A DNA stretch of 64,000 nt from an uncultured Rhodocyclaceae bacterium. Its GTDB lineage: Bacteria > Pseudomonadota > Gammaproteobacteria > Burkholderiales > Rhodocyclaceae. Below the pieces are notes generated by a model. That model ran no database searches. It had not been told where the DNA came from and saw only the letters and a program-made list of their open reading frames with translations. The stretch lies in NCBI GenBank assembly GCA_907163075.1, contig CAJQTY010000001.1:3224001-3288000 (forward strand), written 5' to 3'. This document shows, piece by piece, positions 8,102 to 25,923 of this stretch (position 1 is its first letter; every line of letters begins with the position of its first letter). Made by a program: the position numbers and the translations under genes.

Positions 8102-8571
8102 TCGTCCTCTCCCTTGTTGAAGATCGCCGCGACTTTTTTTGAGAGCACCAGCAGGGCTGCCGTTTCGGCGAGTGCCCGGTCCTTGCGCAGCAACTCGCGT
8201 TCGAGTTCCTTGATACGTTTCTTGTCTTGCCGGGTGGCTTGTGGGCTGGCTCTGAGTTCTTCCGGCTCGGCCAGTGCCGTGGTCGCACTGCTCCGCCATT
8301 GGAGCAGTTCGTCCGGATAGACGCCGTGTTCGCGACACCATGCGCTCTGGCCGGCTTCGTCCAGCGCTGCCGTGACGATCACCGCCTCCAGCCGCGCCGC
8401 CGCTGTCCATGCCCGCCCTCGGGCGGGCATGGACAGCACGTCATCTCGCCAACGTTCGAGCGTGCCTGCACCAATGCCAACTTCACGAGCCACCATGTCC
8501 AACGCCGCACTTTCTGGCGGCAGCAATCGCGCTACCACTCTACCTTTGAATTTCTCTGAGTACCTTGCCAT
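8098..8571 (-). CDS. IS3-like transposase OrfA (DNA-binding)
   Basis: A 157-aa partner of OrfB. An N-terminal helix-turn-helix (MVAREVGIGAGTLERWRDD) should recognise the terminal repeats. A leucine-rich charged coiled coil lies near residues 115-145 (KKRIKELERELLRKDRALAE), as in other IS3 OrfA proteins, for multimerisation. An AAAGG site precedes the ATG at 8571 by six bases; the ATG at 8577 overlaps that site. The stop overlaps the OrfB start. Confidence 0.82.
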   Translation of the reverse strand: MARYSEKFKGRVVARLLPPESAALDMVAREVGIGAGTLERWRDDVLSMPARGRAWTAAARLEAVIVTAALDEAGQSAWCREHGVYPDELLQWRSSATTALAEPEELRASPQATRQDKKRIKELERELLRKDRALAETAALLVLSKKVAAIFNKGEDE

Positions 8572-8609
8572 TTCCATCCTTTATTGCCGCCCATTGTTGA
8601 GATTCTATT

Positions 8610-9913: not shown

Positions 9914-11830
9914 TCAGCCGGATGCGGTCACCCGGTTACGACCGCCCGCCTTGGCCTCGTAGAGGGCAGCGTCAGCAGCCTGGATCAGTGCCAGACTGTC
10001 CACTTCGCCGCTCGTCGATATGGCGGCGCCGACGCTCACGGTGACCGGAATGCGCTGCTGTTCCCACATGAAGGAAGTTTTTTCGATCATCGAACGAATG
10101 CGTTCGCCGATCTGCAGTGCGACACGCAGGTTGGCGTTGGTCAGAATGGCGGCAAACTCCTCGCCACCGTAGCGGAAAACCATGTCCTCGGAGCGCGAAG
10201 CACGCCTCAGGATATCGGCCACCTGGCGCAGCACGGCATCGCCCGCGGCATGTCCAAAACCGTCGTTGATCCGCTTGAAGTGGTCGATGTCGAGCATCAG
10301 GCAGGCCAAGGGTGCGCCGCTGGATTGGGCGAAAACCAGCTCCGATGCCAGAAAGTCCAGCCCGTTGCGGCGATTCGGGAGTTGCGTCAGCGTGTCGGTC
10401 AAGGCATCCTGCAGGAGCCGCTTCTGGGCCACGGCAAACTCGTCGGTCGAACGCATGATCCCGATTCGTTCACGATGGATTTCTTCCTTCAAAATCAGCA
10501 TTCGAGCCGCCGTATTGAGGTGAACGCGCAGGGTCTGCGCATTGACCGGTTTGATCAGCACATCATCGGCGCCAGCGTCGATGATTTCCAGAATGCGATT
10601 TTCCTCGCGCGGCGTTGCCAGGAGCAGGACATAGCTCTCCTTGCCCGTCGTCGATTGGCGCAGGCTGCGGCAAAAATCGGCGGCCTTCAGAATCGGCATC
10701 GACATGTCGGCAATGATGATCTGCGCCGGCCGGCGCAAGGCCAGCGCCAGTCCGTCGGGCGAGTCGTCAATCAACACAGGTTGGTGGCCGAGATCCTCTA
10801 TTTGCTGCATCAGCGGCTTCAGCTCGGTCAGCGGGATGCCGATCAACTGAACGTTCAGGCACGGCGTCCGCATGCGCCGGTTTTCGGAGTCGGGCGCCGT
10901 GCCCATGCGCCGCATGGGTGGGCTGGCCGCCAGTATTTCGGCAAACGGCGGGATATCCTGTGTGCGCACCTGGAGCTTGGCTCCCCATTCGCGCCAGCGT
11001 TCCACCATCCGGTCGACCAGTTCGTTCAGCGCGTCGCCGCCTATCCCCAGGCGCGCTGCCCGGGCCAGCAGAGCGGGCAATAGTCCCCAGCGCGACTCCT
11101 CGTCGACCATGCACAGATGCGCCAACGAACTGGCAAAACTCAGCGAATGCGTCAGCGTCTGCACGCGGGAACCATCGGCAAAGCCGGCCGCTTCGGGATT
11201 TTCATGGTGAAAGGCGGCCTGAATGAGCACCTCCGGCAGACCCCACTCGTTGAGCATGCTGGCGGCAAGCTCGTGGTGGTCCAGGGAAAAACGCTCCTGC
11301 TCCAGTTGCGCCATATCGCCGCCGTGCTGCCGCACCATCAGCAGCAGGTCCGAGTACTCATCGGGAAAGAGCGAAGCCAGAGCCAGTTCGCCCACCCTGG
11401 ACAGCAAACCGACAGTGAATATTTCTTCACTCGTAATCTGGGCGAAATGGGCGAGTTCCTGGCAAGCGATGGCGGTGGCCAGAGAGTGTCCCCAGAAACC
11501 GTCATAATCGAATGCCGAGCATTGCCCGACCTTGTGGCCGTGCATGACGGAGAACCCGACGACCAGATCCCTTACGCGAAACGATCCGAGGGCGACGATG
11601 GCACGCTGCAGCGAAACAATAGGACGCGAGCGGCCAAAGGCCGCCGCATTTGCAAAATAGAGGATGCGCCCCGCAATGGCCGGGTCGGATTGAACCAGTT
11701 GTATCAGATCGGCGATGCGGAAATCATCCCGCTGCAGCAGACGGACGATCGATATGGCGATCCCCTTCGGAGAGGGCAACTTGCCTGTCGTCTTCAAGGC
11801 CGAGTAGCGGTCAGGGTCAATAAAACGCAT
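9914..11830 (-). CDS. HDOD - receiver - GGDEF signalling protein
   Basis: This 638-aa cytoplasmic protein has three modules. Residues ~15-215 form an HDOD domain (DPAIAGRILYFANAA, LLSRVGELALASLFP). Residues ~325-450 form a response-regulator receiver-like domain (IIIADMSMP with the phosphoacceptor Asp, DVLIKPV with the conserved Lys). Residues ~478-635 form a GGDEF diguanylate cyclase domain with an intact active site, FRYGGEEFAAIL, so it should make cyclic di-GMP. The order HDOD-REC-GGDEF in one chain is less common than each alone. No partner kinase is adjacent. It is a single gene on the minus strand, running toward the prophage remnant. Confidence 0.87.
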   Translation of the reverse strand: MRFIDPDRYSALKTTGKLPSPKGIAISIVRLLQRDDFRIADLIQLVQSDPAIAGRILYFANAAAFGRSRPIVSLQRAIVALGSFRVRDLVVGFSVMHGHKVGQCSAFDYDGFWGHSLATAIACQELAHFAQITSEEIFTVGLLSRVGELALASLFPDEYSDLLLMVRQHGGDMAQLEQERFSLDHHELAASMLNEWGLPEVLIQAAFHHENPEAAGFADGSRVQTLTHSLSFASSLAHLCMVDEESRWGLLPALLARAARLGIGGDALNELVDRMVERWREWGAKLQVRTQDIPPFAEILAASPPMRRMGTAPDSENRRMRTPCLNVQLIGIPLTELKPLMQQIEDLGHQPVLIDDSPDGLALALRRPAQIIIADMSMPILKAADFCRSLRQSTTGKESYVLLLATPREENRILEIIDAGADDVLIKPVNAQTLRVHLNTAARMLILKEEIHRERIGIMRSTDEFAVAQKRLLQDALTDTLTQLPNRRNGLDFLASELVFAQSSGAPLACLMLDIDHFKRINDGFGHAAGDAVLRQVADILRRASRSEDMVFRYGGEEFAAILTNANLRVALQIGERIRSMIEKTSFMWEQQRIPVTVSVGAAISTSGEVDSLALIQAADAALYEAKAGGRNRVTASG

Positions 11831-11987: not shown

Positions 11988-12563
11988 TCAGCTGACTACG
12001 ATATGTCCGGCAATCCAGCGTTTGAAATCGATGATTTTTGGATCGTAGCGGTCGTAAGCCATCAGACTCTGCCCGAAAACGTAGGCGTAGAGCAGCAGGC
12101 TGCGGCTTTTCGCTTCGTCGTCGGATAGGCCCTTGGCGACGAAGAGCTTGCGGGCGCTTTCCAGCCGGTAGGTATCGACTTCCTCGACGATCGCACCGGC
12201 CTGCGCGTCGCGCCGCGCCCAGTCGCGCACGGCGAGTTCGATCGAGATGCCCTTGCGGTTGCGATTGCTGCTATACACCTCGATGATCCGGAGCAGTTGA
12301 TCGCCTTCATTGCCTGCCGCCGCGGTACTCTGCTTGTCGATATCGCGGATGCGGCCTTCCTTCCAGGTTTGCAGCACGGCGCTGAAGAGATCCTGGCGAT
12401 CCTTGAAGTGCCAGTAGAAGCTGCCCTTGGTGACGCTGAAGCGTTTGGCCAGGGCCTCGACCCGCATCCCCGCCATGCCTTCGTCGGCGAGTGCTTCGAT
12501 TGCACCGACGATCCACTCATTGCGATCGAGTTGGGTTCTCGGTTTCGATTTTTCCGGCTTCAT
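11988..12563 (-). CDS. TetR/AcrR family regulator, likely of etfBA and ETF-QO
   Basis: A 191-aa protein with the TetR N-terminal helix-turn-helix at residues ~15-60 (MAGMRVEALAKRFSVTKGSFYWHFKDRQDL) and a helical ligand-binding C-terminus. It is transcribed divergently from etfBA copy 1. Two palindromes of the form CCATAC-N6-GTATGG lie in the shared 163-bp gap, over a strong etfBA promoter, and a related site lies over the ETF-QO promoter. The simplest model is repression of ETF genes relieved by an acyl-CoA or related ligand; that is inference. The start gives a normal TetR length. Confidence 0.85.
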   Translation of the reverse strand: MKPEKSKPRTQLDRNEWIVGAIEALADEGMAGMRVEALAKRFSVTKGSFYWHFKDRQDLFSAVLQTWKEGRIRDIDKQSTAAAGNEGDQLLRIIEVYSSNRNRKGISIELAVRDWARRDAQAGAIVEEVDTYRLESARKLFVAKGLSDDEAKSRSLLLYAYVFGQSLMAYDRYDPKIIDFKRWIAGHIVVS

Positions 12564-12628
12564 CGCGCCTTTAATCTTTCAAGTAAAGCCATGCTAAGCT
12601 AGTATTTCAAACGAACGTTTTATGCGTA

Positions 12629-12657
12629 TTGACAGCAACCATACCGCACCGTATGCT
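12629..12657 (+). promoter_or_regulatory. Sigma-70-type promoter of etfBA copy 1
   Basis: TTGACA at 12629-12634, a 17-base spacer, and TATGCT at 12652-12657. Predicted transcription start is near 12664, about 63 bases before the etfB start codon. The first operator covers the spacer and part of the -10 box; the second covers the start site. Confidence 0.7.
12639..12656. promoter_or_regulatory. TetR-type operator 1 (etfBA promoter)
   Basis: CCATACCGCACCGTATGC is an inverted repeat with CATAC and GTATG arms separated by six bases. It overlaps the spacer and -10 region. Confidence 0.6.
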
Positions 12658-12660
12658 ATT

Positions 12661-12678
12661 CCATACCGTTCAGTATGG
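12661..12678. promoter_or_regulatory. TetR-type operator 2 (etfBA promoter)
   Basis: CCATACCGTTCAGTATGG is an inverted repeat with perfect 6-base arms and a six-base spacer. Its centre lies 22 bp from that of operator 1, two helical turns, so two dimers could bind the same DNA face. Confidence 0.65.
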
Positions 12679-12725: not shown

Positions 12726-14400
12726 TTTGAAGATCCTCGTTTCCGTCAAGCGGGTAGTAGATTACAACGTCAAAGTTCGCGTCAAGGCGGACGGGACTGG
12801 TGTTGATGTCGCCAATGCCAAGATGTCGATGAATCCTTTTGATGAAATTGCCGTTGAAGAAGCGGTGCGTCTGAAGGAAGCTGGAATTGCGACCGAAGTC
12901 GTGGCCGTTTCTGCGGGTATCGCCAACTGCCAGGAAACGCTGCGCACGGCGCTGGCGATCGGCGCCGACCGCGGCATCCTGATCGAAACCGACGTCGAAC
13001 TGCAGCCTCTCGCCGTAGCCAAACTGCTCAAGGCCGTGTGCGAAAAAGAACAGCCGCAGATCATTATTTGCGGCAAGCAGGCCATCGACGACGACGCCAA
13101 CCAGACCGGACAGATGCTCGCTGCACTGATGGACTGGCCGCAGGCCGCCTTCGCCTCCAAAGTCATCGTAGCGAACGGCAAAGCGACGGTAACACGCGAA
13201 ATCGACGGCGGCCTCGAAACAATCGAAATCGCCTTGCCCGCGGTAATCACCACCGACCTGCGCCTCAACGAACCGCGATATGCGACGCTCCCCAACATCA
13301 TGAAGGCCAAGAAGAAACCGCTGGAAACCCTCACGCCCGAAGCCCTGGGCATTGATGTTTCTCCCCGTTTGAAGACCCTCAAGGTAGCTGAACCGGCGAA
13401 GCGTGCGGCCGGTATCAAAGTGGCCGATGTCGCTGAACTGGTCGCCAAACTGAAGAATGAAGGAGTAATCGCATGAGTTGCCTGGTTATCGCCGAACACG
13501 ACAACACCTCGCTCAAGTCCTCCACACTCAATGCCGTCACGGCCGCGGCAAAGATCGGAGGAGAGCTACATCTTCTCGTCGCCGGATGCGCTTGCACTTC
13601 CGTTGCCGACAGCGCCGCACGAATCGTCGGCGTGACCAAGGTACTGCTGGCCGATGCGCCGCACTACGCAGATCAATCGCCGGAAAACATTGCAGCGCTG
13701 GTCCTGGCCCAGGCTACCGGCTTTAGCCATGTGCTCGCGCCCGCAACGACAGCGGGCAAGAATTTGATGCCACGTGTCGCCGCCAGGCTCGATGTCGCCC
13801 AGATTTCTGAAATTGTAGCGATCGAGTCGGCCGACACCTTCGTGCGCCCGATCTACGCCGGCAACGTACTGGCGACGGTGCAGTCATCCGATGCGGTCAA
13901 GGTCATCACCGTGCGCACCACCGCGTTTGAGGCGGCTGGCGAAGGTGGCTCGGCCGCCATCGAGAAGGTCACCGCGCAGGCTGATCGGGGCCAGAGCAGG
14001 CTGGTTTCCCGCGAGCTGACCCAATCCGCGCGCCCCGAACTGGCGGCGGCCAAGATCGTTGTTTCCGGTGGGCGTGGTCTGGGCAGCGGCGAGAGCTACC
14101 ACCGAGTCCTTGAACCGCTGGCCGACAAGCTCGGCGCCGCCATGGGTGCGTCACGCGCGGCGGTCGATGCCGGCTACGTACAGAACGATTACCAGGTCGG
14201 ACAAACCGGCAAGATCGTTGCGCCGCAACTCTACATCGCGGTCGGCATTTCCGGCGCCATCCAGCATCTGGCGGGAATGAAGGAAAGCCGTGTGATCGTG
14301 GCCATCAACAAGGATGCCGATGCGCCGATCTTCCAGGTCGCCGATTATGGACTCGTCGGCGATCTTTTCGAGCTTGTGCCGGAACTGACCGCAGCGCTGT
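12726..14400 (+). repeat. 1,675-bp exact duplication, copy 1 (etfBA)
   Basis: Bases 12726-14400 match 19406-21080 with an offset of 6,680 and no difference that I could find. The identity begins one base before the TTG start and ends at the first base of the etfA stop codon (TGA here, TAG in copy 2). The flanks on both sides are unrelated. Confidence 0.9.
12727..13476 (+). CDS. etfB: Electron transfer flavoprotein beta subunit, copy 1
   Basis: The 249-aa small subunit of ETF carries electrons from acyl-CoA dehydrogenases to ETF-QO and holds AMP. The start is TTG at 12727, after an AAAGGAGA site, giving the family N-terminus [20 protein letters not shown]; an ATG at 12622 would add a leader that covers the promoter. 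Typical blocks are [44 protein letters not shown] and a [10 protein letters not shown] near the end. The stop overlaps the etfA start (ATGA). Gene order etfB-etfA-acyl-CoA dehydrogenase implies a role in fatty or organic acid oxidation. Confidence 0.95.
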
Positions 14401-14402
14401 GA
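13473..14402 (+). CDS. etfA: Electron transfer flavoprotein alpha subunit, copy 1
   Basis: The 309-aa FAD-binding subunit pairs with EtfB. The N-terminal domain is followed by the C-terminal FAD domain with the signature block [12 protein letters not shown], then [37 protein letters not shown] and [20 protein letters not shown], all normal for functional EtfA. It is translationally coupled to etfB, and 33 bases separate it from the acyl-CoA dehydrogenase. The protein is identical to copy 2. Confidence 0.95.
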
Positions 14403-14435
14403 CTTGTCGGATCTTGATTCTTACAGGAGAATGAA

Positions 14436-16223
14436 ATGAGCGAATACCGTGCCCCGATCCGTGAAATGCAGTTCGTGCTCAAGGAGTTGGCCGGGCTTGA
14501 CGAAGTCGCGCAGTTGCCGGGCTGCGAGGAGGCCGCTGCCGATGTGGTCGACGCCGTGCTGGAGGAAGCCGCCAAGTTCGCCGAGGGCGTCCTGTCGCCG
14601 CTCAACGTGGTCGGCGACCGCGAGGGCGCACAATTTCAGGACGGTCAGGTGACGATGCCGAAGGGCTTCAAGGAAGCCTACAAGCTGTTCGCCGAAAGCG
14701 GGTGGACTGCGCTCGGCAGCGAGACGGAGTGGGGCGGGCAAGGTTTGCCGAAACTGGTCGCGACGCCTGTGAGCGAAATGTGGAAGTCGGCCAACCACGC
14801 CTTTGCGCTGTGCCCGCTGCTGACCGGCGGGGCGATCGATGCGCTGGTGCTCTCCGGGTCCGACAAACTCAAGCAGACCTACCTGGAGAAGATGGTCGCC
14901 GGTGAGTGGACGGGAACGATGAACCTCACCGAACCGGGCGCGGGGTCCGATCTGGCCGCCGTGCGCACACGCGCCGAACCTCAGGCCGACGGCAGCTACA
15001 AGATTTTCGGCCAGAAAATTTTCATCACCTATGGCGAACACGACATGGCGGACAACATCATCCACCTCGTGCTGGCGCGCACGCCGACGGCGCCGGAAGG
15101 CGTCAAGGGAATCTCGCTGTTCATCGTGCCGAAGTTCATGGTTGACGACGCAGGACGTCTGGGTGCGCGCAACGACGCCTGGTGCGCATCGATCGAGCAC
15201 AAGCTGGGCATTCACGCCAGCCCGACGGCGGTGATGGCCTTCGGCGACAAGGGCGGCGCCATCGGCTACCTGGTCGGCGAGGAGAACCGCGGCCTCGAAT
15301 ACATGTTCATCATGATGAACGTCGCGCGCTTCGGCGTCGGCATGGAGGGCGTCGCCGTTTCCGAGCGCGCCTACCAGCGCGCGCGCGACTACGCCAAGGA
15401 ACGCGTGCAGGGTACCGACATCGGCGTGCGCGGCAGCGTCAAGGTGCCGATCATCGTGCATCCTGACGTGCGCCGAATGCTCATGAGCATGAAGGCCAAG
15501 ACCGAGGCCAGTCGCGCGCTGGCCTATGTCGTCGCCGGCGCGCACGACAAGGCGGTGCATCACCCGGATGCCGCCGTGCGCAAACAGCATCAGGCCTTTG
15601 TTGACCTGATGATCCCGGTGGTCAAGGGCTGGAGCACCGAGATCGGCATCGAGGTGGCATCAACCGGAATCCAGGTCCATGGCGGCATGGGCTACATGGA
15701 AGAAACCGGAGCCGCGCAATATTTGCGCGATGCCCGTATTTCAACGATTTACGAAGGTACGACAGGCATCCAGGCCAACGATCTGATCGGCCGCAAGATG
15801 GCGCGTGACGGCGGAGCGACGTTCAAGGTCGTGATCGGCTTGATGCGCGCGCTCGATGCCGATCTGGCCCGTCACGATGGCCTCGCCGCCATCCGCCGTC
15901 GATTCGCGGCCGGGGTCGATGCGCTGACCAGCGCCGGCGAGTGGATTGTCGCCACCTATGCCGCCGACGTGCGTGCTGCGTCGGCCAGTGCCGTGCCGTT
16001 CCTGACGCTGTTCGGCATCGTTGCCGGCGGCTGGCAGATGGCGCGTGCGGCGCTTGTCGCGCAGGCCAGGATCGATGCGGGCGACAGCGATCCGTTCTAC
16101 CCGGCCAAGATCGCCACGGCGCGTTTCTTTGCCGACCACCTGCTGTCCCAGGCCGACGGTCTGGCCAGTTCGGTAACCGACGGCGCGGCCGGCGTGATGG
16201 CCTTGGCCGAAGAACAATTCTGA
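14436..16223 (+). CDS. Acyl-CoA dehydrogenase (595 aa, DmdC-like)
   Basis: This FAD enzyme makes a 2,3-double bond in an acyl-CoA and reduces ETF. Its length, an extra N-terminal segment of ~40 residues and a C-terminal extension place it with the 590-600-aa group that includes 3-methylmercaptopropionyl-CoA dehydrogenase (DmdC); many members act on other substrates. Visible motifs are MNLTEPGAGSDL (FAD/substrate), GQKIFITYGEHD, GGMGYMEETGAAQYLRDARI and the catalytic Glu in IYEGTTGIQ. An AGGAGA site precedes the ATG. It is the third gene of the etfBA operon and is followed by a terminator. Confidence 0.9.
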   Translation: MSEYRAPIREMQFVLKELAGLDEVAQLPGCEEAAADVVDAVLEEAAKFAEGVLSPLNVVGDREGAQFQDGQVTMPKGFKEAYKLFAESGWTALGSETEWGGQGLPKLVATPVSEMWKSANHAFALCPLLTGGAIDALVLSGSDKLKQTYLEKMVAGEWTGTMNLTEPGAGSDLAAVRTRAEPQADGSYKIFGQKIFITYGEHDMADNIIHLVLARTPTAPEGVKGISLFIVPKFMVDDAGRLGARNDAWCASIEHKLGIHASPTAVMAFGDKGGAIGYLVGEENRGLEYMFIMMNVARFGVGMEGVAVSERAYQRARDYAKERVQGTDIGVRGSVKVPIIVHPDVRRMLMSMKAKTEASRALAYVVAGAHDKAVHHPDAAVRKQHQAFVDLMIPVVKGWSTEIGIEVASTGIQVHGGMGYMEETGAAQYLRDARISTIYEGTTGIQANDLIGRKMARDGGATFKVVIGLMRALDADLARHDGLAAIRRRFAAGVDALTSAGEWIVATYAADVRAASASAVPFLTLFGIVAGGWQMARAALVAQARIDAGDSDPFYPAKIATARFFADHLLSQADGLASSVTDGAAGVMALAEEQF

Positions 16224-16288
16224 GAAAACGGATGTTCAGCGCCGAGACGAGAAAAATTGTCCCGGCGCCCGCTGCTCTTTGACTGCTC

Positions 16289-16329
16289 AAATCTCCCTGC
16301 ATGAGTTTAGAATGAAGGGAGATTTTTTT
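16289..16329 (+). terminator. Rho-independent terminator of the etfBA-acd operon
   Basis: AAATCTCCCT (16289-16298) pairs perfectly with AGGGAGATTT (16316-16325) and runs into seven T residues. It lies 65 bases after the acyl-CoA dehydrogenase stop and upstream of the HDOD gene's start, which argues against longer versions of that gene. Confidence 0.85.
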
Positions 16330-16347
16330 GATTTGAAGGAGTGCCGA

Positions 16348-17208
16348 GTGACTCAATCGATACATGAAGCTGCCGAAGGATTCCGCAATGCGCTCGCGGG
16401 GGCGAAAATCGGCGAACTCAGTTTTCCGACCAATCTTGATGCCAGCCGGCGGGTGCTGAGGGCGGTGGAGAATCCGGATCTCGGGGTGAATGACCTGGCC
16501 AAGATCGTTGTTTCTGAGCCCCTGTTGTCGGCCAAGGTGGTTCGACTCGCCAATTCGGTGGCCCTCAATCCGGGCAACAATCCGGTTCGCGATGTCGTGC
16601 AGGCGGTCCTGCGCGTCGGAATGGCGCCGATCAAGTCGCTGGCCATGGTGCTGATCGTCGATCAGTTGCGGCATACGCAACGCCACAGCGCTTGCCGTGA
16701 CCTCTCCAATCGCTTGTGGGAGCGTGGCGTTCATGTGGCCGCGCTGGCTTACGTTCTGGCCCGAAAGCTGACGCGCATCAATGCCGACGAAGTCATGTTC
16801 GCCGGCATCGTGCGTGATCTCGGCCGTTTCTACATGCTTTCGCGGGCGGCCGACTACCCGGCGCTGCTGCAGGATAAGGTCGTGCTGGCCGAAACGATCA
16901 ATGACCTGGCGGACCCGGTTACCGAAAAAGTGCTCGGCGCGCTCAACCTGCCGGCTTCGGTGATGGACGCCGTACTCGCCTCGCGGAATTACGGCGGCAC
17001 CATGCCACCGGCGACGATGGGTGATCTTCTCTTCGTCGCCAGCGTCGTCTCGCCGCGTCCCGATCCGTTCGACGAACTCGATGCGCGGGTAACTCCGGTG
17101 GCCGACGGCGCCGCTGCGATGGGCCTCGATCAAAGCCTGGTGACCGAGGTGATTTCGGCTTCCGGCGACGAGATATACTCGATAGTCATCGCGCTGGAAG
17201 AGTACTGA
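16348..17208 (+). CDS. HDOD domain protein
   Basis: A 286-aa protein made mostly of one HDOD domain (residues ~15-210; VSEPLLSAKVVRLANSVA, ADEVMFAGIVRDLGRFYML), a non-catalytic relative of HD phosphohydrolases used in signalling. The GTG at 16348 is chosen because an AAGGAG site lies six bases before it and because the upstream ATG codons fall inside the terminator hairpin. It lies between the etfBA-acd operon and ETF-QO but seems to be its own unit. No output domain follows, so it probably acts through a partner. Confidence 0.78.
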   Translation: MTQSIHEAAEGFRNALAGAKIGELSFPTNLDASRRVLRAVENPDLGVNDLAKIVVSEPLLSAKVVRLANSVALNPGNNPVRDVVQAVLRVGMAPIKSLAMVLIVDQLRHTQRHSACRDLSNRLWERGVHVAALAYVLARKLTRINADEVMFAGIVRDLGRFYMLSRAADYPALLQDKVVLAETINDLADPVTEKVLGALNLPASVMDAVLASRNYGGTMPPATMGDLLFVASVVSPRPDPFDELDARVTPVADGAAAMGLDQSLVTEVISASGDEIYSIVIALEEY

Positions 17209-17284
17209 GCGAGTACTGTGCGAGTAGTACTGAGCAGAGGCGAATTACCGGGCGGCAACTTGCTGCCCGGTGTGTCGCCGCCGG

Positions 17285-18931
17285 CTACATATTCGGATAA
17301 TTCGGCCCTTCGCCGCCTTGCGGCACCACCCACGTGATGTTCTGCGTTGGGTCCTTGATATCGCAGGTCTTGCAATGCACGCAGTTTTGCGCGTTGATCT
17401 GCAGGCGGGGATTTCCGCCGGCGTCGTCGCGCACGATTTCGTACACGCCGGCCGGACAGTAGCGTTGTTCGGGAGCGTCGTAGAGCGCCAGATTGATGCC
17501 GATCGGCACGGACGCATCCTTGAGCGTCAGGTGGCACGGCTGGTCTTCCTCATGGTTCGTGTTCGAAAGATAGACCGACGACAGACGGTCGAAGGTAATC
17601 ACGCCATCAGGCTTGGGATAGACGATGGGCCGGCAATCGGCCGCCTTCTTCAGCTTGGCGTGATCGGGTCCCGAATGGTGAAGCGTCCACGGTGCTTTCC
17701 CGCGCAGCAGCGTCTGGTCGATACCGAGCATCAGACTGCCCAGATAAAGTCCTTTGGCCATCAAGGGCTTGAAGTTGCGCGCCTTGTGCAGTTCTTCAAA
17801 CAGCCAGCTCTGGCGGAAAGCTTCAGGATAGGCCGCCAGTTCATCGCCGCTGCGCCCGGCGGCGACGGCGTCGAAGCAGGCTTCGGCGGCCAGCGCCCCG
17901 GACTTGATCGCGCTGTGCGAACCCTTGATGCGCGACGCATTCAGGAAACCGGCATCGTCGCCGATTAGCGCGCCGCCCGGAAAAACAAGCCTGGGCAACG
18001 ATTGCAGGCCGCCGGCCGTGATCGCGCGGGCGCCGTAGGCGATACGTTTGCCGCCTTCGAGAAACACGCGCAGGGCCGGATGCGTCTTGAGGCGCTGCGC
18101 TTCTTCGTAGGGCGAGAGAAACGGGTTGCTGTAGCCCAGCCCGGTGACCATGCCCACTGAAACCTGGTTGCCTTCCATGTGATACATGAAACCGCCGCCA
18201 TAGGTCTGCGCATCGAGCGGCCAGCCGCCGGTGTGGATGACGAGGCCGGCCTGGTGTTTCTCCGGCTGCACCTCCCACAGTTCCTTCAGACCGATGCCGT
18301 AGACCTGCGGATCGGAGCCTTCGCGCAGACGAAATTTCTCTTCGAGCTGCTTGCCGAGCTGGCCGCGACAGCCCTCGGCAAATAGCGTGTATTTAGCGTG
18401 TAGTTCCATGCCCGGCTGGTAGGCCGGCCCATGACTGCCATCCTTGAGCAGCCCCATGTCGCCGGTGGCCATGCCCTTGACCGAGCCGTCCTCGTTGTAG
18501 AGCACCTCGGCGCCGGCAAATCCGGGATAAATCTCGACTCCAAGCGACTCCGCCTGCTGACCAAGCCAGCGGCAAACGTTGCCCAGGCTGATGACGTAGT
18601 TGCCGGCGTTGTGGAAACACCCGGGCAGCATCCAGTTGGGGATCTGAAAACTGCCACTTTCGTTGAGGATGAGGAAACGGTCTTCGCTGACCGGCGCCTT
18701 GAGCGGTGCGCCGAGCTCCTGCCAGTCCGGAAACAGTTCGGCCAGCGCGCGCGGATCCATCACCGCGCCGGAGAGGATATGGCCACCGATTTCGGCGGAC
18801 TTCTCGATCAGGCAGACGTTGATTTCACTCGATTTCTGTGCAGCGAGCTGCTTGAGATGAATCGCTGCGGAAAGGCCCGCCGGGCCGCCACCAACGATCA
18901 CGACGTCGTATTCCATGGATTCGCGTTGCAT
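17285..18931 (-). CDS. Electron transfer flavoprotein-ubiquinone oxidoreductase
   Basis: A 548-aa membrane-associated iron-sulfur flavoprotein that passes electrons from reduced ETF to ubiquinone. The N-terminus MEYDVVIVGGGPAGLSAAIHL is the FAD-binding Rossmann motif. The middle carries GALIGDDAGFLNASRIKGSH. The C-terminal ferredoxin-like domain has the four 4Fe-4S cysteines in CPAGVYE and CVHCKTCDIKDP. The start at 18931 has a GAGGAAA site; a longer frame back to 19156 would cover the promoter. The length fits bacterial ETF-QO. It faces the HDOD gene, and its promoter carries a site like the TetR operators at etfBA. Confidence 0.93.
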   Translation of the reverse strand: MQRESMEYDVVIVGGGPAGLSAAIHLKQLAAQKSSEINVCLIEKSAEIGGHILSGAVMDPRALAELFPDWQELGAPLKAPVSEDRFLILNESGSFQIPNWMLPGCFHNAGNYVISLGNVCRWLGQQAESLGVEIYPGFAGAEVLYNEDGSVKGMATGDMGLLKDGSHGPAYQPGMELHAKYTLFAEGCRGQLGKQLEEKFRLREGSDPQVYGIGLKELWEVQPEKHQAGLVIHTGGWPLDAQTYGGGFMYHMEGNQVSVGMVTGLGYSNPFLSPYEEAQRLKTHPALRVFLEGGKRIAYGARAITAGGLQSLPRLVFPGGALIGDDAGFLNASRIKGSHSAIKSGALAAEACFDAVAAGRSGDELAAYPEAFRQSWLFEELHKARNFKPLMAKGLYLGSLMLGIDQTLLRGKAPWTLHHSGPDHAKLKKAADCRPIVYPKPDGVITFDRLSSVYLSNTNHEEDQPCHLTLKDASVPIGINLALYDAPEQRYCPAGVYEIVRDDAGGNPRLQINAQNCVHCKTCDIKDPTQNITWVVPQGGEGPNYPNM

Positions 18932-18987
18932 CGGTTTCCTCGCTGCCGCAATGGCGTTGTGCTGCACTTCGGTTGTGATGTGCTTTT

Positions 18988-19026
18988 TACTACGGTATCG
19001 TATGGAATAAGACGTGCGGGCGTCAA
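18988..19026 (-). promoter_or_regulatory. ETF-QO promoter with TetR-type half-site palindrome
   Basis: Reading the minus strand, TTGACG (19021-19026), an 18-base spacer and TACGAT (18997-19002) form a sigma-70-like promoter. CCATAC-GATACC-GTAGTA (19005-18988) overlaps the -10 box: the left arm matches the etfBA operators perfectly, the right arm only in GTA. The relative position is the same as at etfBA copy 1. Confidence 0.5.
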
Positions 19027-19406
19027 GTCGCCAACGGCATAAAGGGTTCTGATCGATCAGGCAGACCGACCGGGAGACACGTAAATGTCGCAGCCGTTTG
19101 CATCCGTTTGGCCCAAATGAATACCAAATGTGACCAAGCACGGCCAGGAGAAGCAACGGGTGCTTGAAGGAAGTTTGCCAACATCGATTACTTCAAGCGT
19201 TGCGTCATAAACGGTTTAATATTCAGATGCAGACGATAAGATTCAACCTGCAATTGTTGCTTAGCCAGGACTCTACCGGCCCTTGATGCTCGTAGGCAGC
19301 CGGTTTCCTAAGCACAGAAGCAGCACTGTAGGGCGAATCCCCGGTATTTGAGCAGCAGCGGGCACCCAATCCGACTATTCAATTTTTGTAGAGAAGGAGA
19401 GAAGCT
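19027..19406. other. Leader region of the second etfBA copy
   Basis: About 380 bases with no gene. I find no CCATAC-N6-GTATGG palindrome here, in contrast to copy 1. An AAGGAGAG site lies just before the TTG start. No riboswitch or clear promoter was recognised. Confidence 0.5.
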
Positions 19407-21080
19407 TTGAAGATCCTCGTTTCCGTCAAGCGGGTAGTAGATTACAACGTCAAAGTTCGCGTCAAGGCGGACGGGACTGGTGTTGATGTCGCCAATGCCA
19501 AGATGTCGATGAATCCTTTTGATGAAATTGCCGTTGAAGAAGCGGTGCGTCTGAAGGAAGCTGGAATTGCGACCGAAGTCGTGGCCGTTTCTGCGGGTAT
19601 CGCCAACTGCCAGGAAACGCTGCGCACGGCGCTGGCGATCGGCGCCGACCGCGGCATCCTGATCGAAACCGACGTCGAACTGCAGCCTCTCGCCGTAGCC
19701 AAACTGCTCAAGGCCGTGTGCGAAAAAGAACAGCCGCAGATCATTATTTGCGGCAAGCAGGCCATCGACGACGACGCCAACCAGACCGGACAGATGCTCG
19801 CTGCACTGATGGACTGGCCGCAGGCCGCCTTCGCCTCCAAAGTCATCGTAGCGAACGGCAAAGCGACGGTAACACGCGAAATCGACGGCGGCCTCGAAAC
19901 AATCGAAATCGCCTTGCCCGCGGTAATCACCACCGACCTGCGCCTCAACGAACCGCGATATGCGACGCTCCCCAACATCATGAAGGCCAAGAAGAAACCG
20001 CTGGAAACCCTCACGCCCGAAGCCCTGGGCATTGATGTTTCTCCCCGTTTGAAGACCCTCAAGGTAGCTGAACCGGCGAAGCGTGCGGCCGGTATCAAAG
20101 TGGCCGATGTCGCTGAACTGGTCGCCAAACTGAAGAATGAAGGAGTAATCGCATGAGTTGCCTGGTTATCGCCGAACACGACAACACCTCGCTCAAGTCC
20201 TCCACACTCAATGCCGTCACGGCCGCGGCAAAGATCGGAGGAGAGCTACATCTTCTCGTCGCCGGATGCGCTTGCACTTCCGTTGCCGACAGCGCCGCAC
20301 GAATCGTCGGCGTGACCAAGGTACTGCTGGCCGATGCGCCGCACTACGCAGATCAATCGCCGGAAAACATTGCAGCGCTGGTCCTGGCCCAGGCTACCGG
20401 CTTTAGCCATGTGCTCGCGCCCGCAACGACAGCGGGCAAGAATTTGATGCCACGTGTCGCCGCCAGGCTCGATGTCGCCCAGATTTCTGAAATTGTAGCG
20501 ATCGAGTCGGCCGACACCTTCGTGCGCCCGATCTACGCCGGCAACGTACTGGCGACGGTGCAGTCATCCGATGCGGTCAAGGTCATCACCGTGCGCACCA
20601 CCGCGTTTGAGGCGGCTGGCGAAGGTGGCTCGGCCGCCATCGAGAAGGTCACCGCGCAGGCTGATCGGGGCCAGAGCAGGCTGGTTTCCCGCGAGCTGAC
20701 CCAATCCGCGCGCCCCGAACTGGCGGCGGCCAAGATCGTTGTTTCCGGTGGGCGTGGTCTGGGCAGCGGCGAGAGCTACCACCGAGTCCTTGAACCGCTG
20801 GCCGACAAGCTCGGCGCCGCCATGGGTGCGTCACGCGCGGCGGTCGATGCCGGCTACGTACAGAACGATTACCAGGTCGGACAAACCGGCAAGATCGTTG
20901 CGCCGCAACTCTACATCGCGGTCGGCATTTCCGGCGCCATCCAGCATCTGGCGGGAATGAAGGAAAGCCGTGTGATCGTGGCCATCAACAAGGATGCCGA
21001 TGCGCCGATCTTCCAGGTCGCCGATTATGGACTCGTCGGCGATCTTTTCGAGCTTGTGCCGGAACTGACCGCAGCGCTGT
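19406..21080 (+). repeat. 1,675-bp exact duplication, copy 2 (etfBA)
   Basis: Second copy of 12726-14400, in direct orientation. Three translated frames on both strands are identical between copies, which supports identity at the nucleotide level, including silent sites. Confidence 0.9.
19407..20156 (+). CDS. etfB: Electron transfer flavoprotein beta subunit, copy 2
   Basis: Identical in sequence to copy 1, including its TTG start, but with an unrelated leader and its own GAAGGAGAG ribosome-binding site. It lies divergently from ETF-QO, 475 bases away. The lack of the TetR-type palindromes implies separate control. Its product should be interchangeable with copy 1. Confidence 0.93.
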
Positions 21081-21082
21081 AG
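20153..21082 (+). CDS. etfA: Electron transfer flavoprotein alpha subunit, copy 2
   Basis: The protein is identical to copy 1; only the stop codon differs (TAG instead of TGA). No acyl-CoA dehydrogenase follows; instead a decayed transposase fragment begins about 100 bases downstream. The ATGA overlap with etfB is kept. Confidence 0.93.
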
Positions 21083-21186
21083 CGGGCGGCAGGAAATCTT
21101 GCGAACTTTCCAAACGCTCGATCGCTGGCTCAAGCAAACGCCGCGTTGAATACACCGGAACGGAATGACAGTCGCCGTTGGCGGCT

Positions 21187-21345
21187 GTCAGGACCGGTGC
21201 GCCGAAATCGATGAGTGGTCTGTTCCAGAGCCACCGGCGCAACAGGGAGAAGATGGCCGAAACCGTCTCGGGCAGCCAGTACCAGCGGCTCCACCACATG
21301 CTGGGCGAATCGGCTTAGGATCGCCGCGGCGTGCGCCGGCAGCGG
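21187..21345 (+). pseudogene. Transposase N-terminal fragment (IS701/IS4-like), decayed
   Basis: In the frame of the ATG at 21211 the sequence reads MSGLFQSHRRNREKMAE, then VSGSQYQRLHHMLGESA, a stop (TAG, 21316-21318) and DRRGV. This matches the N-terminal block of IS701-type DDE transposases, which usually reads GLLQ-x-x-x-R-K-N-x-E-x-M-A-E ... LQHFLS-x-S-P-W-D; the TAG replaces the Trp codon. The remainder of the transposase is missing. Assignment rests on remembered family patterns only. Confidence 0.5.
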
Positions 21346-21471
21346 ATTGCCGACGCCACTGCCCATTTCGGCGATGCCTTTAGTTGGGGGGAGAAACCGG
21401 ACGGTTTGGAGGGCGGGGAATCGGCCTGAAACGCCCGTGCTTACTAACCCTTGCCGCCATGCCACGATGCC

Positions 21472-22152
21472 TTACTGCGTGGGCGCCGAGACAACCCACA
21501 CCCGGCGATCATGGACGTCGTTCCAGTCGTAGCCAAGGTCGACCAGCATGCCGCCGATGAAAAACTTGGCATTGGTCAGGCCATCGAGCCAGGCGTTCTG
21601 GTACTGGGCGCCGTTGGGGAAGAGGGTGCCGGGGGGCGTCGGGCCATCGGTCCGCACCGCGCCGCTATTCTTGTCGCCGGGCCAGTACAGCCGGCGGCCC
21701 CAGTTGGGAATCTGGAACATTGGCATGTTCTTGATCTTGGGGTACATCTCGCGGGTGCAAATGACCAGATCGCTGAAGCTGCGACCATCCTTGGCCGTTT
21801 TCCAGAGACGGACATCAAAGGTCACGCAATCGGTGTCGCGCAGGGTGTTCTGAACAGCCGTGGAGGCAAAGACGCCGGGGCTGGCCGACTTGATGGTGAT
21901 CGCTACCCGCGGGAAGCGCTCCGGGTTGCGCGTGTCGGTAATGGGGTATTTCTTGAAAATGCCGTCCAGTTCGCTGCCGGCAATTTCCTTGCGCCCGTTT
22001 GCCCCGCCGTTCTGCGCCCGGCTCCTTTCCGCCGCCTTGGCCAGTTCCGCCTTGAGGTTGGCACCCGCTTCGTCCAGCGACGCACATCCCGCAAACAACA
22101 ACGGCGTAACCAACAACAGCCCCTTAAACTTTGATGACAGTGAATGTTTCAT
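21472..22152 (-). CDS. Putative lipoprotein of unknown function (226 aa)
   Basis: The ATG at 22152 begins a lipoprotein signal (MKHSLSSKFKGLLLV...LLFAGC) with the lipidated Cys near residue 23, so the protein should be anchored in the envelope. The mature part has a helical charged segment followed by a mixed domain (DCVTFDVRLWKTAKDGRSF, FQIPNWGRRLYWPGD). I do not recognise the family. The longer frame back to 22233 would bury the signal peptide and is rejected. It is downstream of, and on the same strand as, the TVP38-FAD fusion gene, but two hairpins separate them. Confidence 0.7.
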   Translation of the reverse strand: MKHSLSSKFKGLLLVTPLLFAGCASLDEAGANLKAELAKAAERSRAQNGGANGRKEIAGSELDGIFKKYPITDTRNPERFPRVAITIKSASPGVFASTAVQNTLRDTDCVTFDVRLWKTAKDGRSFSDLVICTREMYPKIKNMPMFQIPNWGRRLYWPGDKNSGAVRTDGPTPPGTLFPNGAQYQNAWLDGLTNAKFFIGGMLVDLGYDWNDVHDRRVWVVSAPTQ

Positions 22153-22330: not shown

Positions 22331-24475
22331 TCATCCGCGGCGCCAGGCGTGAAAGCGCCCGACCCAGGCCAGCAGCCGCTGCGGCGCGTGTGCTTTTTTC
22401 CAGTTGCCTGCCGCGTATTTGTTGGCTTCAGCCAGCGTCGGGTAAATATGGATGGTGCCGAGAATCTTGTTCAGGCCGATGCCGTGGCGCATGGCCAGGA
22501 CGTATTCGGCGATCAGGTCGGCGGCGTGTTCGCCGACGATGGTGACGCCGAGAATCCTGTCCTTGCCCGGTACGGTGAGCACCTTGACGAAGCCGTGCGC
22601 CTCGCCGTCGGCAATTGCCCGGTCGAGATCGTCGATGCCATAGTGCGTGATTTCATAGGCGACCTGGCGTTCCTTCGCCTCCAGTTCATTGAGCCCGACG
22701 CGCGCAACTTCGGGGTCGATAAAGGTCGCCGACGGGATCACCGAATAATCGGCGCGGAACTTCCGGAACGGGTCGAATAGCGCATTGACGGCGGCGTACC
22801 ACGCCTGGTGGGCGGCGGTGTGAGTGAACTGGAAGGGGCCGGCGACGTCGCCAGCGGCGTAGATGTTGGGGTATTTGGTCTGCAGGAATTCGTTGGTTTC
22901 GATGGTGCGGCTGGCGGCGATGCCCAGTTCTTCGAGGCCGTAGCCCGTGAGATTGGCGGTCCGGCCGACGGCAACCAGCACGGCGTCGAAGGCGATGCGC
23001 ACGTCCTGGCCATCGTTTTCGGCGATCAGGATTTTTTCGCCGCCGTCGATCAGGAATTGTCTGGCCTGGTGATTGAGCCGCACGTCGATCCCCTCGGCCC
23101 GGAAGCGCTGCACGATCTGCTCCGAAACCTCCGGGTCCTCGCGCAGCAGCAGGCGCGGCGCCATTTCCACCAGCGTGACCTGGGCTCCGAGGCGGGCAAA
23201 GGCTTGCGTCAGCTCGGCGCCGATCGGCCCGCCGCCGAGAACGACGAGGCGCTTTGGCAGTTCGCGCAGTTCCCAGACGGTGTCGGAAGTCAGGTAGCCG
23301 ATCTCTTCGATGCCGGGTATTGGCGGCACAAAAGGGTGTGCGCCGGTGGCGATGACGATGCTGCGTGCCGACAGCCGCTGGCGTTCGCCGTCATCGCGAA
23401 CAATGTCCACCTCCCACGGCGAAACCAGCTTCGCCGTACCGGCGATGACCTCGACGCCGAGCGCGCTGTAGCGTTCAGCTGAGTCGTGCGGCTCGACGCT
23501 CCTGATGACCCGGTGCACGCGGTCCATGACTTCGGCGAATTCGAACTCGGCCGTGGCCGTGCGAATGCCGAACTCCGGTGCGCGCTGCATGTGCGCGAGC
23601 AGGCGGGCCGAGCGGATCAGCGCCTTGGACGGAACGCAGCCGGTATTCAGGCAGTCGCCGCCGAGCTTGTGCTTCTCGATCAGCGTTACCCTGGCCTTGA
23701 CCGCCGCCGCGATATAGGCCGTCACCAGCCCGGCCGAGCCGCCGCCGATGACGATCAGGTTGCGCTCGAAGCGTCCCGGCTTCTTCCAGCCGGCATAGAC
23801 TTTGTGCGCCCCGACGGCCTCGGCGATCCTCCGCGCGATCAGCGGAAAGAGGCCGAGCAGGACGAAGGAGCCGAGCAGGGCGGGCGAGAGGATTCCCGAC
23901 ATTGACTCGATTCTGGCCAGTTGCGTGCCGGCGTTCACGTAGACCACCGTCCCGGCGAGCATGCCGATCTGGCTCACCCAGTAGAAGGTCCGCGTCCGCA
24001 TCGGCGTCAGTCCCATCAGCAGGTTGATGACGAAGAAAGGGAACACGGGGACCAGGCGCAGCGTGAAGAGATAGAAACCGCCATCCTTGCCGACGCCGGC
24101 ATTGATGACGCGCAGGCGGTCGCCGAAATGCCGCTGCACCCAGTCGCGCAGCAGGAAGCGCGAGGCCAGGAAGGCGAGGGTGGCGCCCAGCGACGAGGCG
24201 AAGGAGACCAGCAGCAGCCCCCAGAACAGGCCGAACACCGCGCCGCCGACCAGCGTCATCACCGTCGCGCCGGGCACTGACAAGGCGGTTACCGCGACGT
24301 AGGAGACAAAGTAGAGCAGGGCCGCGGCCACCGGCTGCGCGGCGCGCCAGTCCTCGATCGCCGCCTGCCGGCTCTGGAAATAGTCGAGGCTGAGGAAGCG
24401 TCCGAGATCGAGGCCGAAGTAGGCCAGGAGCAGGCCGCCAAGCGCGGCGATCAAGAGCAGTCGTCGGGTGTTCAT
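22331..24475 (-). CDS. TVP38/DedA-like membrane domain fused to FAD disulfide oxidoreductase
   Basis: A 714-aa fusion. Residues 1-~225 form a TVP38/TMEM64-type membrane domain (about five hydrophobic helices; GATVMTLVGGAVFG and FTLRLVPVFPFFVINLLMG blocks). Residues ~238-710 form a class I pyridine-nucleotide disulfide oxidoreductase: FAD motif VIGGGSAG at 242, the redox pair Cys275-x4-Cys280 in GGDCLNTGCVPSKA, an NAD(P)H motif VVLGGGPIGAEL and YAAGDVAGPF. It resembles mercuric reductase but lacks the HMA domain and C-terminal Cys pair. The start at 24475 overlaps the upstream small ORF (ATGA). Its place in the arsS group suggests a role in metal(loid) or thiol redox chemistry at the membrane. 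Confidence 0.85.
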   Translation of the reverse strand: MNTRRLLLIAALGGLLLAYFGLDLGRFLSLDYFQSRQAAIEDWRAAQPVAAALLYFVSYVAVTALSVPGATVMTLVGGAVFGLFWGLLLVSFASSLGATLAFLASRFLLRDWVQRHFGDRLRVINAGVGKDGGFYLFTLRLVPVFPFFVINLLMGLTPMRTRTFYWVSQIGMLAGTVVYVNAGTQLARIESMSGILSPALLGSFVLLGLFPLIARRIAEAVGAHKVYAGWKKPGRFERNLIVIGGGSAGLVTAYIAAAVKARVTLIEKHKLGGDCLNTGCVPSKALIRSARLLAHMQRAPEFGIRTATAEFEFAEVMDRVHRVIRSVEPHDSAERYSALGVEVIAGTAKLVSPWEVDIVRDDGERQRLSARSIVIATGAHPFVPPIPGIEEIGYLTSDTVWELRELPKRLVVLGGGPIGAELTQAFARLGAQVTLVEMAPRLLLREDPEVSEQIVQRFRAEGIDVRLNHQARQFLIDGGEKILIAENDGQDVRIAFDAVLVAVGRTANLTGYGLEELGIAASRTIETNEFLQTKYPNIYAAGDVAGPFQFTHTAAHQAWYAAVNALFDPFRKFRADYSVIPSATFIDPEVARVGLNELEAKERQVAYEITHYGIDDLDRAIADGEAHGFVKVLTVPGKDRILGVTIVGEHAADLIAEYVLAMRHGIGLNKILGTIHIYPTLAEANKYAAGNWKKAHAPQRLLAWVGRFHAWRRG

Positions 24476-24705
24476 CTCAACATTCCGGATGCTTCGCGGC
24501 CGGCAGTGCTGTCCATGGCGTAATCCGGACCGTCGGTAATCCGCCGGAAACAGGATTGCCAGGCGGCGGAACCTTCGGGCCAGTTGATCAGCAAGCTTTC
24601 CTGCCAGGCTTTCCTGTCGTAGTGGATCGGCAGTGTATCGACGCCGGCCGCGCGCCGACGGCAAGCGTAGCGCACCGGGCATCGGCGGCCGGCTTCATTC
24701 ACGCC
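24472..24705 (-). pseudogene. Small ORF, probably an internally deleted gene
   Basis: A GTG-start frame of 77 aa begins VNEAGRRCPVRYA and ends DTLPIHYDRKAWQESLL, INWPEGSAAW, and a short tail. The two ends look like the N- and C-terminal parts of one larger phosphoesterase-like protein I associate with arsS neighbourhoods, joined after loss of the middle. That reading is from memory and unverified. The frame overlaps both neighbours (GTGA upstream, ATGA downstream), so it is translated in series with them if expressed. Confidence 0.4.
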
Positions 24706-24868: not shown

Positions 24869-25867
24869 TCAGGCGCCGCAGCTCGGCGCGGCGACGGTTT
24901 CGTCGCCTAGCGCGCCGCCGCAGCTCGATCCCTGTCCGGCCGTGCAGCCGTAGCAGTGATCGGCGACGCGAATGGCGTGCCCGTCGAGCGCGCCGCCGCC
25001 AAGCTCGGTGATATGCCGGCGCGGCCGGCCGGCGGCGGCAATCGGCAACCCCAGCTGCTGGTTGAAATCGCAGTCGTAGAGGTAGCCCTGCCAATCGACC
25101 GAGAGCAGGTTGCGGCACATTACGTGTTCCAGGTTTTCGTCGCGGTGCGCGCCGTGCAGTAGGCGCATGTAGCTGTTGAACTGGCCCTTGGAAATCAGCA
25201 TCGAGCCGAAGCGCTGGATCGGCATGTTGGTCAGCGTAAACAACTGGTTGAAGACGATGCCGAAGTTTTTGCCGAGATGTGCCTTGTAGGCCGCTTCAAG
25301 CGGACCCTGCGGCGGCGATAGACTCGGACCCTGCGGGTTGTAGACCAGGTTCAGGATCAGCTCGCCGCCCGGCGCGCCGTAACCCAGCGCGTTGAGGCGT
25401 TGCAGGCCCTTGATGCTGGCCGCGAAAGTACCCTTGCCGCGTTGCCTGTCGACGTTTTCCTCGAGATAGCATGGCATGGAGGCGACGACCTCGACGCGAT
25501 GTGCGGCGAGGAAATCGCCCAGATCGCCAAAGCCGGGCTCTTCGAGGATACTCAGGTTGCAGCGGTCGATGACCTTGAGGCCACGGCTGCGCGCGGCAAC
25601 GACCAGGCGGCGGAAGTGCGGGTTCAGCTCCGGCGCACCGCCGGTCAGGTCGAGTACCTTGAGCTCCGGGCTGGCCGCGGCAAAGTCGAGCAGGGCATCG
25701 ACCGTTTCGCCGCTCATTTCCTCCTTGCGCTGCGGCCCGGCATTGACGTGGCAATGCAGGCAGCTCTGGTTGCAGCGATAACCGAGGTTGACTTGCAGGA
25801 TTTCCACCGCCCGGCGCCGCAGCGCGGGGAAGTCGGTTTGGGCGAGAAGGGCGAGGGTGGCATGCAT
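24869..25867 (-). CDS. arsS: Arsenosugar biosynthesis radical SAM protein ArsS
   Basis: A 332-aa radical SAM enzyme proposed to form the 5'-deoxyadenosyl (arsenosugar precursor) adduct of methylated arsenic. The 4Fe-4S cysteines are Cys32, Cys36 and Cys39 in RCNQSCLHC. The family's SLSPPQGPLEAAYK, LFTLTNMPIQRFGS and CYGCTAGQGSSCGG blocks are present; the last supplies extra cysteines near the C-terminus. The start at 25867 gives the normal N-terminus. It follows prpB by 57 bases and heads the small-ORF/TVP38 group. No arsenic methyltransferase or arsR is seen nearby. Confidence 0.87.
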   Translation of the reverse strand: MHATLALLAQTDFPALRRRAVEILQVNLGYRCNQSCLHCHVNAGPQRKEEMSGETVDALLDFAAASPELKVLDLTGGAPELNPHFRRLVVAARSRGLKVIDRCNLSILEEPGFGDLGDFLAAHRVEVVASMPCYLEENVDRQRGKGTFAASIKGLQRLNALGYGAPGGELILNLVYNPQGPSLSPPQGPLEAAYKAHLGKNFGIVFNQLFTLTNMPIQRFGSMLISKGQFNSYMRLLHGAHRDENLEHVMCRNLLSVDWQGYLYDCDFNQQLGLPIAAAGRPRRHITELGGGALDGHAIRVADHCYGCTAGQGSSCGGALGDETVAAPSCGA

Positions 25868-25923
25868 TGGTTTGGCCTTTCCGGTTGATCGTATCCACTT
25901 GGTCGGCCGAGGGCCGGGTTTCC

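Follow-up and report, generated by a model that had tools for sequence, protein, structure and literature searches.

Introduction

Concerted evolution of etfA and etfB, the genes for electron transfer flavoprotein (ETF), is already known in Burkholderiales, the order within which GTDB places the Rhodocyclaceae. Here we describe an extreme case: a pair of etfBA copies in one 64,000-nucleotide stretch of DNA from an uncultured Rhodocyclaceae bacterium (GenBank assembly GCA_907163075.1, contig CAJQTY010000001.1, positions 3,224,001 to 3,288,000), called the window below. Coordinates are those of the window unless a genome and contig are given. The assembly comprises 5.2 Mb in 4 contigs, and the contig with both copies is 3.46 Mb long.

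Wang and Chen (2018; PMC6053082) name eftA and eftB (that is, etfA and etfB) among 26 genes under long-lasting concerted evolution, and the two are listed there for 10 and 9 species of Burkholderiales, respectively. The cause given is gene conversion, and for most of the listed genes the synonymous sites are alike; the authors caution that etfA and etfB might look older than they are if they were transferred between species. Our case involves the same genes, with paralogs again closer within a genome than between species. It also resembles the amo and hao operons of Nitrosomonadales (PMC6053082), where several homogenized operon copies serve one pathway of energy metabolism, although the enzymes differ. 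As far as its main text goes, PMC6053082 contains no words beginning with Rhodocycl, Azoarcus or Thauera, and it is not known to describe a codon-sharp limit, a pattern of one operator per genome, or a pair that is both this close together and 100% identical. A literature search for identical etfBA copies in Rhodocyclaceae returned nothing beyond that paper, and further reports may exist in print. What can be added here is the extension over the family Rhodocyclaceae, a left limit that is codon-sharp, the pattern of a single operator and the arrangement as close direct repeats.

Another gene known for conversion is tuf. The kinetics of conversion between tufA and tufB have been described in Salmonella (PMC5485169), and in the genome considered here the two tuf copies agree at 99.67% over 1,208 bp, and their flanks do not match. 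The etfBA case differs in that a two-gene electron-transfer operon is involved rather than a translation factor, and in that the copies lie in direct orientation, only 6.7 kb apart.

Two identical copies of etfBA

The two copies are direct repeats on the forward strand, copy 1 at 12726..14400 and copy 2 at 19406..21080, each beginning one base ahead of the etfB start codon and ending with the first base of the etfA stop codon. They agree over all 1,675 bases with 0 mismatches, and the identity extends by 0 bases on either side; no other same-strand exact repeat of at least 40 bases is present in the window. Silent sites are included in the match, as the original prediction had stated, and dS between the copies is 0, the synonymous sites being homogenized. 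The limits also fall where that prediction had placed them: on the left one base before the TTG start (12727 in copy 1, 19407 in copy 2), and on the right at the first base of the stop codon, which is TGA in copy 1 and TAG in copy 2, so that the first T alone is in common. Over 100 bases of flank, compared without gaps, the copies are 29% alike upstream and 22% downstream, close to the 25% expected by chance. The leaders differ, and a purine-rich ribosome-binding site is found ahead of each copy; the claims of unlike flanks and of a separate leader and ribosome-binding site for each copy stand.

Both copies are intact, with an EtfB of 249 residues (counted from the TTG) and an EtfA of 309 residues. 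In copy 1, etfB lies at 12727..13476 and etfA at 13473..14402; the mechanical list of open reading frames begins this etfB at 12622 because the frame is open upstream. In copy 2, etfB lies at 19407..20156 and etfA at 20153..21082. The copy 2 proteins have Pfam domains PF01012 (ETF; EtfB and EtfA) and PF00766 (ETF_alpha; EtfA), and the copy 1 proteins are identical to them.

Searches of the genome with the DNA (40 of 137 first-look candidates scored) and with the EtfA protein (26 of 26 scored) each find these two copies and no third. The nearest full-length DNA in 58 other genomes is at most 80% identical, so the 100% identity is a matter within this genome. Among 80 matches listed, the named records closest by EtfA belong for the most part to Accumulibacter, Propionivibrio and further Rhodocyclaceae or close relatives.

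Such a pair could in principle be made by an assembler that doubled one copy, or by polishing that equalized two slightly different ones, and the contamination estimate of the assembly, 3.63%, can be counted on the side of an artefact. However, the four junctions between copies and flanks are all different and lie inside the 3.46-Mb contig, so repeat collapse in assembly is not their source; collapse takes copies away and does not add them. Near-identical pairs also recur in single-contig genomes, and polishing could explain only the last fraction of a percent. We regard an artefact as very improbable.

We consider it highly probable that the two etfBA operons are dispersed duplicates and that gene conversion keeps their coding parts identical while the flanks stay separate. 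Homologous recombination would copy one coding part over the other; with no homology before the start codon or after the stop, the flanks would escape conversion. Since ETF docks with many dehydrogenases and with ETF:ubiquinone oxidoreductase (ETF-QO), selection would favor one sequence under several promoters. For this genome, conversion as the source of the identity is inferred by comparison with the related sequences described next.

Copies in related genomes

An EtfA search of 395 family genomes, this one included (at most 5 candidates scored per genome, E <=1e-70), gives matches in 367 and at least two matches in 98 by hand count. The multi-copy sample consists of this genome and 34 chosen from the 97 other genomes with several matches. 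It contains 97 loci, namely 95 matches of the 34 genomes and the two copies here, with etfB adjacent in 93; the four lacking it (L216, L218, L219 and L220) are at contig ends and were compared on etfA alone. Comparing relatives for copy number and identity had been proposed with the original prediction, and the comparison agrees with it: 20 of the 35 genomes have a best pair of 93% identity or more (one of them, G244, judged from etfA alone), a proportion that is not a family rate because the choice of the 34 favored few contigs and similar scores. Many other paralogs in the 35 genomes are 55-82% identical and stand outside the homogenized sets.

The separation is also clear at synonymous sites. 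Within-genome dS is 0-0.23 in 35 pairs (the close pairs, the one described here among them), 0.32 in one, and at least 0.57 in the remainder. The close pairs are mostly far apart, with unrelated flanks. Their 100-base flanks are mostly about 25% identical; exceptions are the downstream flank in G233 (82%) and, in part, G392 (44%) and one pair of G136 (40%).

In 24 of the 35 close pairs the left limit of identity is the second base of the start codon, and the start codons themselves often differ (ATG, GTG, TTG). In three further pairs it is the first base of the start codon, and in the remaining eight it lies between -13 and +15. The right limit is scattered: in 30 pairs the identity stops 6 to 52 bases short of the stop codon, and in five it runs on for 1 to 65 bases from the point where that codon starts. 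Differences per site are 0.031 in the first tenth of the coding sequence (CDS), 0.066 in the last tenth and 0.009-0.027 between, in a profile whose pairs are not independent and which includes start-codon changes. More differences at the CDS ends are expected if conversion tracts are limited by loss of homology. Loss of homology would spread into the genes from either end and come to a halt where the protein is under selection, a process that would fit the limits found; an EtfB constrained from its first residues and an EtfA with an unconstrained tail would explain why the left limit is sharp and the right one loose.

Purifying selection alone, with no conversion, might be thought sufficient to keep the copies alike, given that ETF is conserved and that dN is at most 0.027 in the 35 close pairs. 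This is already contradicted, and we find it scarcely credible: the synonymous sites are alike too, against a dS of at least 0.57 in paralogs outside the homogenized sets, and between species of genus g86 these genes, compared at one position, diverge by 9-19% in DNA.

Genus g86 allows same-position and within-genome comparisons to be set side by side. Between species, copies of the same start-codon class and position are 81-91% identical in the CDS, and homology of their 300-base flanks is seen in 25 of 30 comparisons; locus L151 of G195, whose flanks match other g86 loci at the protein level only, takes part in each of the five that fail. Within a genome, the CDS are 93-99.4% identical, the flank scores are no higher than those of shuffled sequences in 6 of 6 cases, and a translated search finds no protein-level flank match between the two copies in any of the six. 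In three further genera, flanks compared within a genome score 15-29 (shuffled maxima, 20-33), and those compared at the same position score 96-595, except for two downstream cases in genus g73. The six g86 genomes (L146-L157) also look like an old neighborhood that has been split: one copy keeps the TetR side with its operator, the other keeps the acyl-CoA dehydrogenase side in five of the six, and there is no match between the copies.

Separate recent duplications would leave secondary positions unshared between species; some are shared, and this test favors conversion. At location B, 7 loci from 4 genera are alike upstream (21 of 21 pairs at 800 bits or more), and the downstream side is common just to three species pairs within a genus. 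Four B loci were checked for upstream genes, and three of them (L132, L133 and L159) have a family III CoA-transferase there. The best match of the one at L133 is to succinate-glutarate CoA-transferase, below the model cut-off; at L169, also a B locus, the frame chosen gave no CoA-transferase match. On the tree, B copies join the other copies of their own genome, clearly in G077, G136, G095 and G198 and weakly in G117 and G331; the B copy of G099 stands with the second copy of its own genome. For the tree of 62 copies as a whole, the genome label requires 29 changes, where the minimum is 22, the shuffled mean is 52.5 and 0 of 200 shuffles are as low. Paralogs are thus closer than orthologs, the copies grouping largely by genome and not by position.

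A separate etfBA type (L171, L178, L183 and L176) is nearly identical across genera g69 and g73 on the tree, which suggests recent horizontal transfer as far as these sequences go.

Positions of copies 1 and 2

Copy 1 occupies a position widely shared in the family, in the contiguous gene order seen in its genus relatives: TetR (reverse), etfBA, acyl-CoA dehydrogenase, HDOD protein and ETF-QO (reverse), as in G013, G002 and G003 (two contigs). Proteins of its flanks were matched with those of 60 other loci from 22 family genomes at E 1e-20, with 150 bits also required for copy 1; there are matches upstream at 21 loci, downstream at 21 and on both sides at 15. The flanks of copy 2 have no protein-level match on either side among the same 60 loci. 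Within its leader (18932-19405), three relatives match at bases 18963-19035, near ETF-QO; the remainder has no match in the 27 other genomes of the genus.

Downstream of copy 2, a decayed remnant of an IS701-type transposase lies at 21217..21368 on the forward strand. The match has an E value of 2.5e-4, far below the curated cut-off; the remnant is on one side of copy 2 only and is 95% identical over 152 bp to a decayed fragment elsewhere in the genome (G000:C1:2658458-2658609). Transposition of copy 2 was considered and rejected: 18900-21600 has no flanking insertion sequence (IS) copies and just short, chance-like direct and inverted repeats. No terminal repeats or target duplication are found around copy 2 in this interval, where the ends could have eroded.

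These results bear on a single recent duplication of the two genes to the site beside ETF-QO, perhaps aided by the IS701-type element, with no time for change since. Zero differences between the copies, a copy 2 position not found elsewhere and a transposase remnant about 135 bp beyond copy 2 would all suit such an event; yet the remnant is decayed and thus not a fresh insertion, both breakpoints would have had to land by chance at the start and stop codons, no more than a base or two away, and relatives have the same coding-limited identity, partly at positions common to species. A duplication of this kind seems unlikely to us, but less so than an artefact. The original prediction left the choice between a recent copy limited to the two genes and gene conversion; conversion is better supported because coding-limited identity recurs in relatives, partly at positions conserved between species.

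Several points nevertheless weigh against conversion as the general explanation or for this genome in particular. In the other 15 of the 35 multi-copy genomes the best pair is 55.6-91.4% identical, so conversion is not universal. Grouping on the tree is imperfect, with the copies of G099 and G331 mixed, and at shared position D these two species are 98.0% identical to each other, closer than either of the two G331 pairs involving D. In the three genera compared besides g86, five of the 24 flank scores within genomes are slightly higher, by 2 to 3 points, than the best of 30 shuffles, and among 32 one-contig pairs identity is not correlated with distance (Spearman -0.13, P 0.46). In the present genome, short-read polishing could have erased a few real differences. 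An EtfA search of its genus finds a match in 24 of 28 genomes (this one included), with two full-length matches in this genome only; G002, G012 and G004 each have a second match, but a distant or partial one. Many of the other assemblies are fragmented, and identical copies could be collapsed there, but the match is single even in G007 (20 contigs) and G026 (4 contigs). In relatives the shared positions (location B and those of g86) point to duplications older than the species, but the copy 2 position is found in no other genome.

Signs of a hidden second copy in fragmented assemblies of the genus were considered and set aside. In G022 the etfBA contig ends 13 bases past etfA and has an exact 63-base overlap with a contig that starts with ETF-QO, which an ordinary break between neighbors can also explain. 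G003 (a 110-base overlap within etfB) and G004 (a contig that begins in etfA) are just as ambiguous.

Control regions

A TetR-family regulator gene (11988..12563, reverse strand; Pfam TetR_N) is divergent from copy 1 and neighbors etfB in many relatives. In the leader of copy 1, a sigma-70-like promoter at 12629..12657 on the forward strand (TTGACA-17-TATGCT, 10/12, a consensus match only) is overlapped and then followed by two palindromes of the form CCATAC-N6-GTATGG (12639-12678). The first, at 12639..12656, has one mismatch and overlaps the promoter; the second, CCATACCGTTCAGTATGG, lies just 3' of it at 12661..12678. By their sequence the palindromes are operator-like and a candidate target of the TetR protein. 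The leader of copy 2 (18932..19405, forward strand) has no operator-like site.

Scanning up to 400 bp upstream with at most one mismatch was possible for 93 of the 97 copies. The site precedes exactly one copy in 31 of 35 genomes, two copies in 0 of 35 and no copy in four (G099, G062, G132 and G244); the unscanned copies are two of G100 and two of G244, so the zero for G244 is uninformative. The remaining 564 kb of the same loci contain no operator-like site. This genome has exact sites at two places, one ahead of etfBA copy 1 and the other ahead of an acyl-CoA synthetase-like gene (G000:C3:356872), whose translation resembles FadD.

In relatives, secondary copies are found near possible ETF feeders (acyl-CoA dehydrogenase with CoA-transferase), near a GbdR-like regulator (below the model cut-off) and, in G155, near ETF-QO; the products of these neighbors may feed ETF. 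Other secondary copies adjoin SecD, transporters, alanine dehydrogenase or a GGDEF protein, with no evident link. We infer that the two copies in the window are differently controlled. Copy 1, in the widely shared position and with an operator-like site, is probably induced along with fatty-acid breakdown. From copy 2, which lacks the site and stands beside ETF-QO, the cell probably obtains the same electron carrier in response to other signals; the logic of the arrangement is likely to be one protein with two controls.

More tentatively, and with rather less than even confidence, etfBA in this family can be viewed as a shared coding module placed in several regulons, with conversion halting at the start codon and one copy per genome responding to TetR, and with the repeats here allowing the module to be amplified or lost. 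If so, each promoter would be insulated while the protein is the same everywhere, and recombination between the 1.7-kb direct repeats around acyl-CoA dehydrogenase and ETF-QO could let the module amplify or vanish. The finding itself offers a natural setting in which to ask how a bacterium maintains a single protein sequence while regulating its genes in several ways. Coding parts are synchronized and control regions are not, with the left boundary usually at the start codon, and an operator-like site before at most one copy per genome is a marker for divided regulation. The many genomes that carry between two and six copies lend themselves to a comparison of conversion, escape and loss within one family.

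Neighboring genes

Between the two copies lie an acyl-CoA dehydrogenase gene directly 3' of copy 1 (14436..16223, forward strand; Pfam acyl-CoA dehydrogenase domains), a gene for an HDOD-domain protein (16279..17208, forward strand) and, divergent from copy 2, the ETF-QO gene (17285..18931, reverse strand; Pfam Fer4_ETF_QO and ETFQO_UQ-bd), whose start was set by alignment with relatives. These neighbors suggest an electron flow from acyl-CoA dehydrogenase through ETF to ETF-QO.

The HDOD protein of 16279-17208 also lies between acyl-CoA dehydrogenase and ETF-QO in G013, G002 and G003. It is one of two near the etf locus, the other being at 9914-11830; one of them is joined to GGDEF. Upstream of the etfBA locus there is an IS3-family transposase gene (7010-8410) with an overlapping open reading frame, the two together spanning 7010-8577. 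On the other side of the locus, 22331-24682 encodes a VTT membrane domain fused to a flavoprotein like mercuric reductase and lipoamide dehydrogenase, and a gene for the arsenosugar radical SAM protein ArsS (24869-26002) adjoins this fusion.

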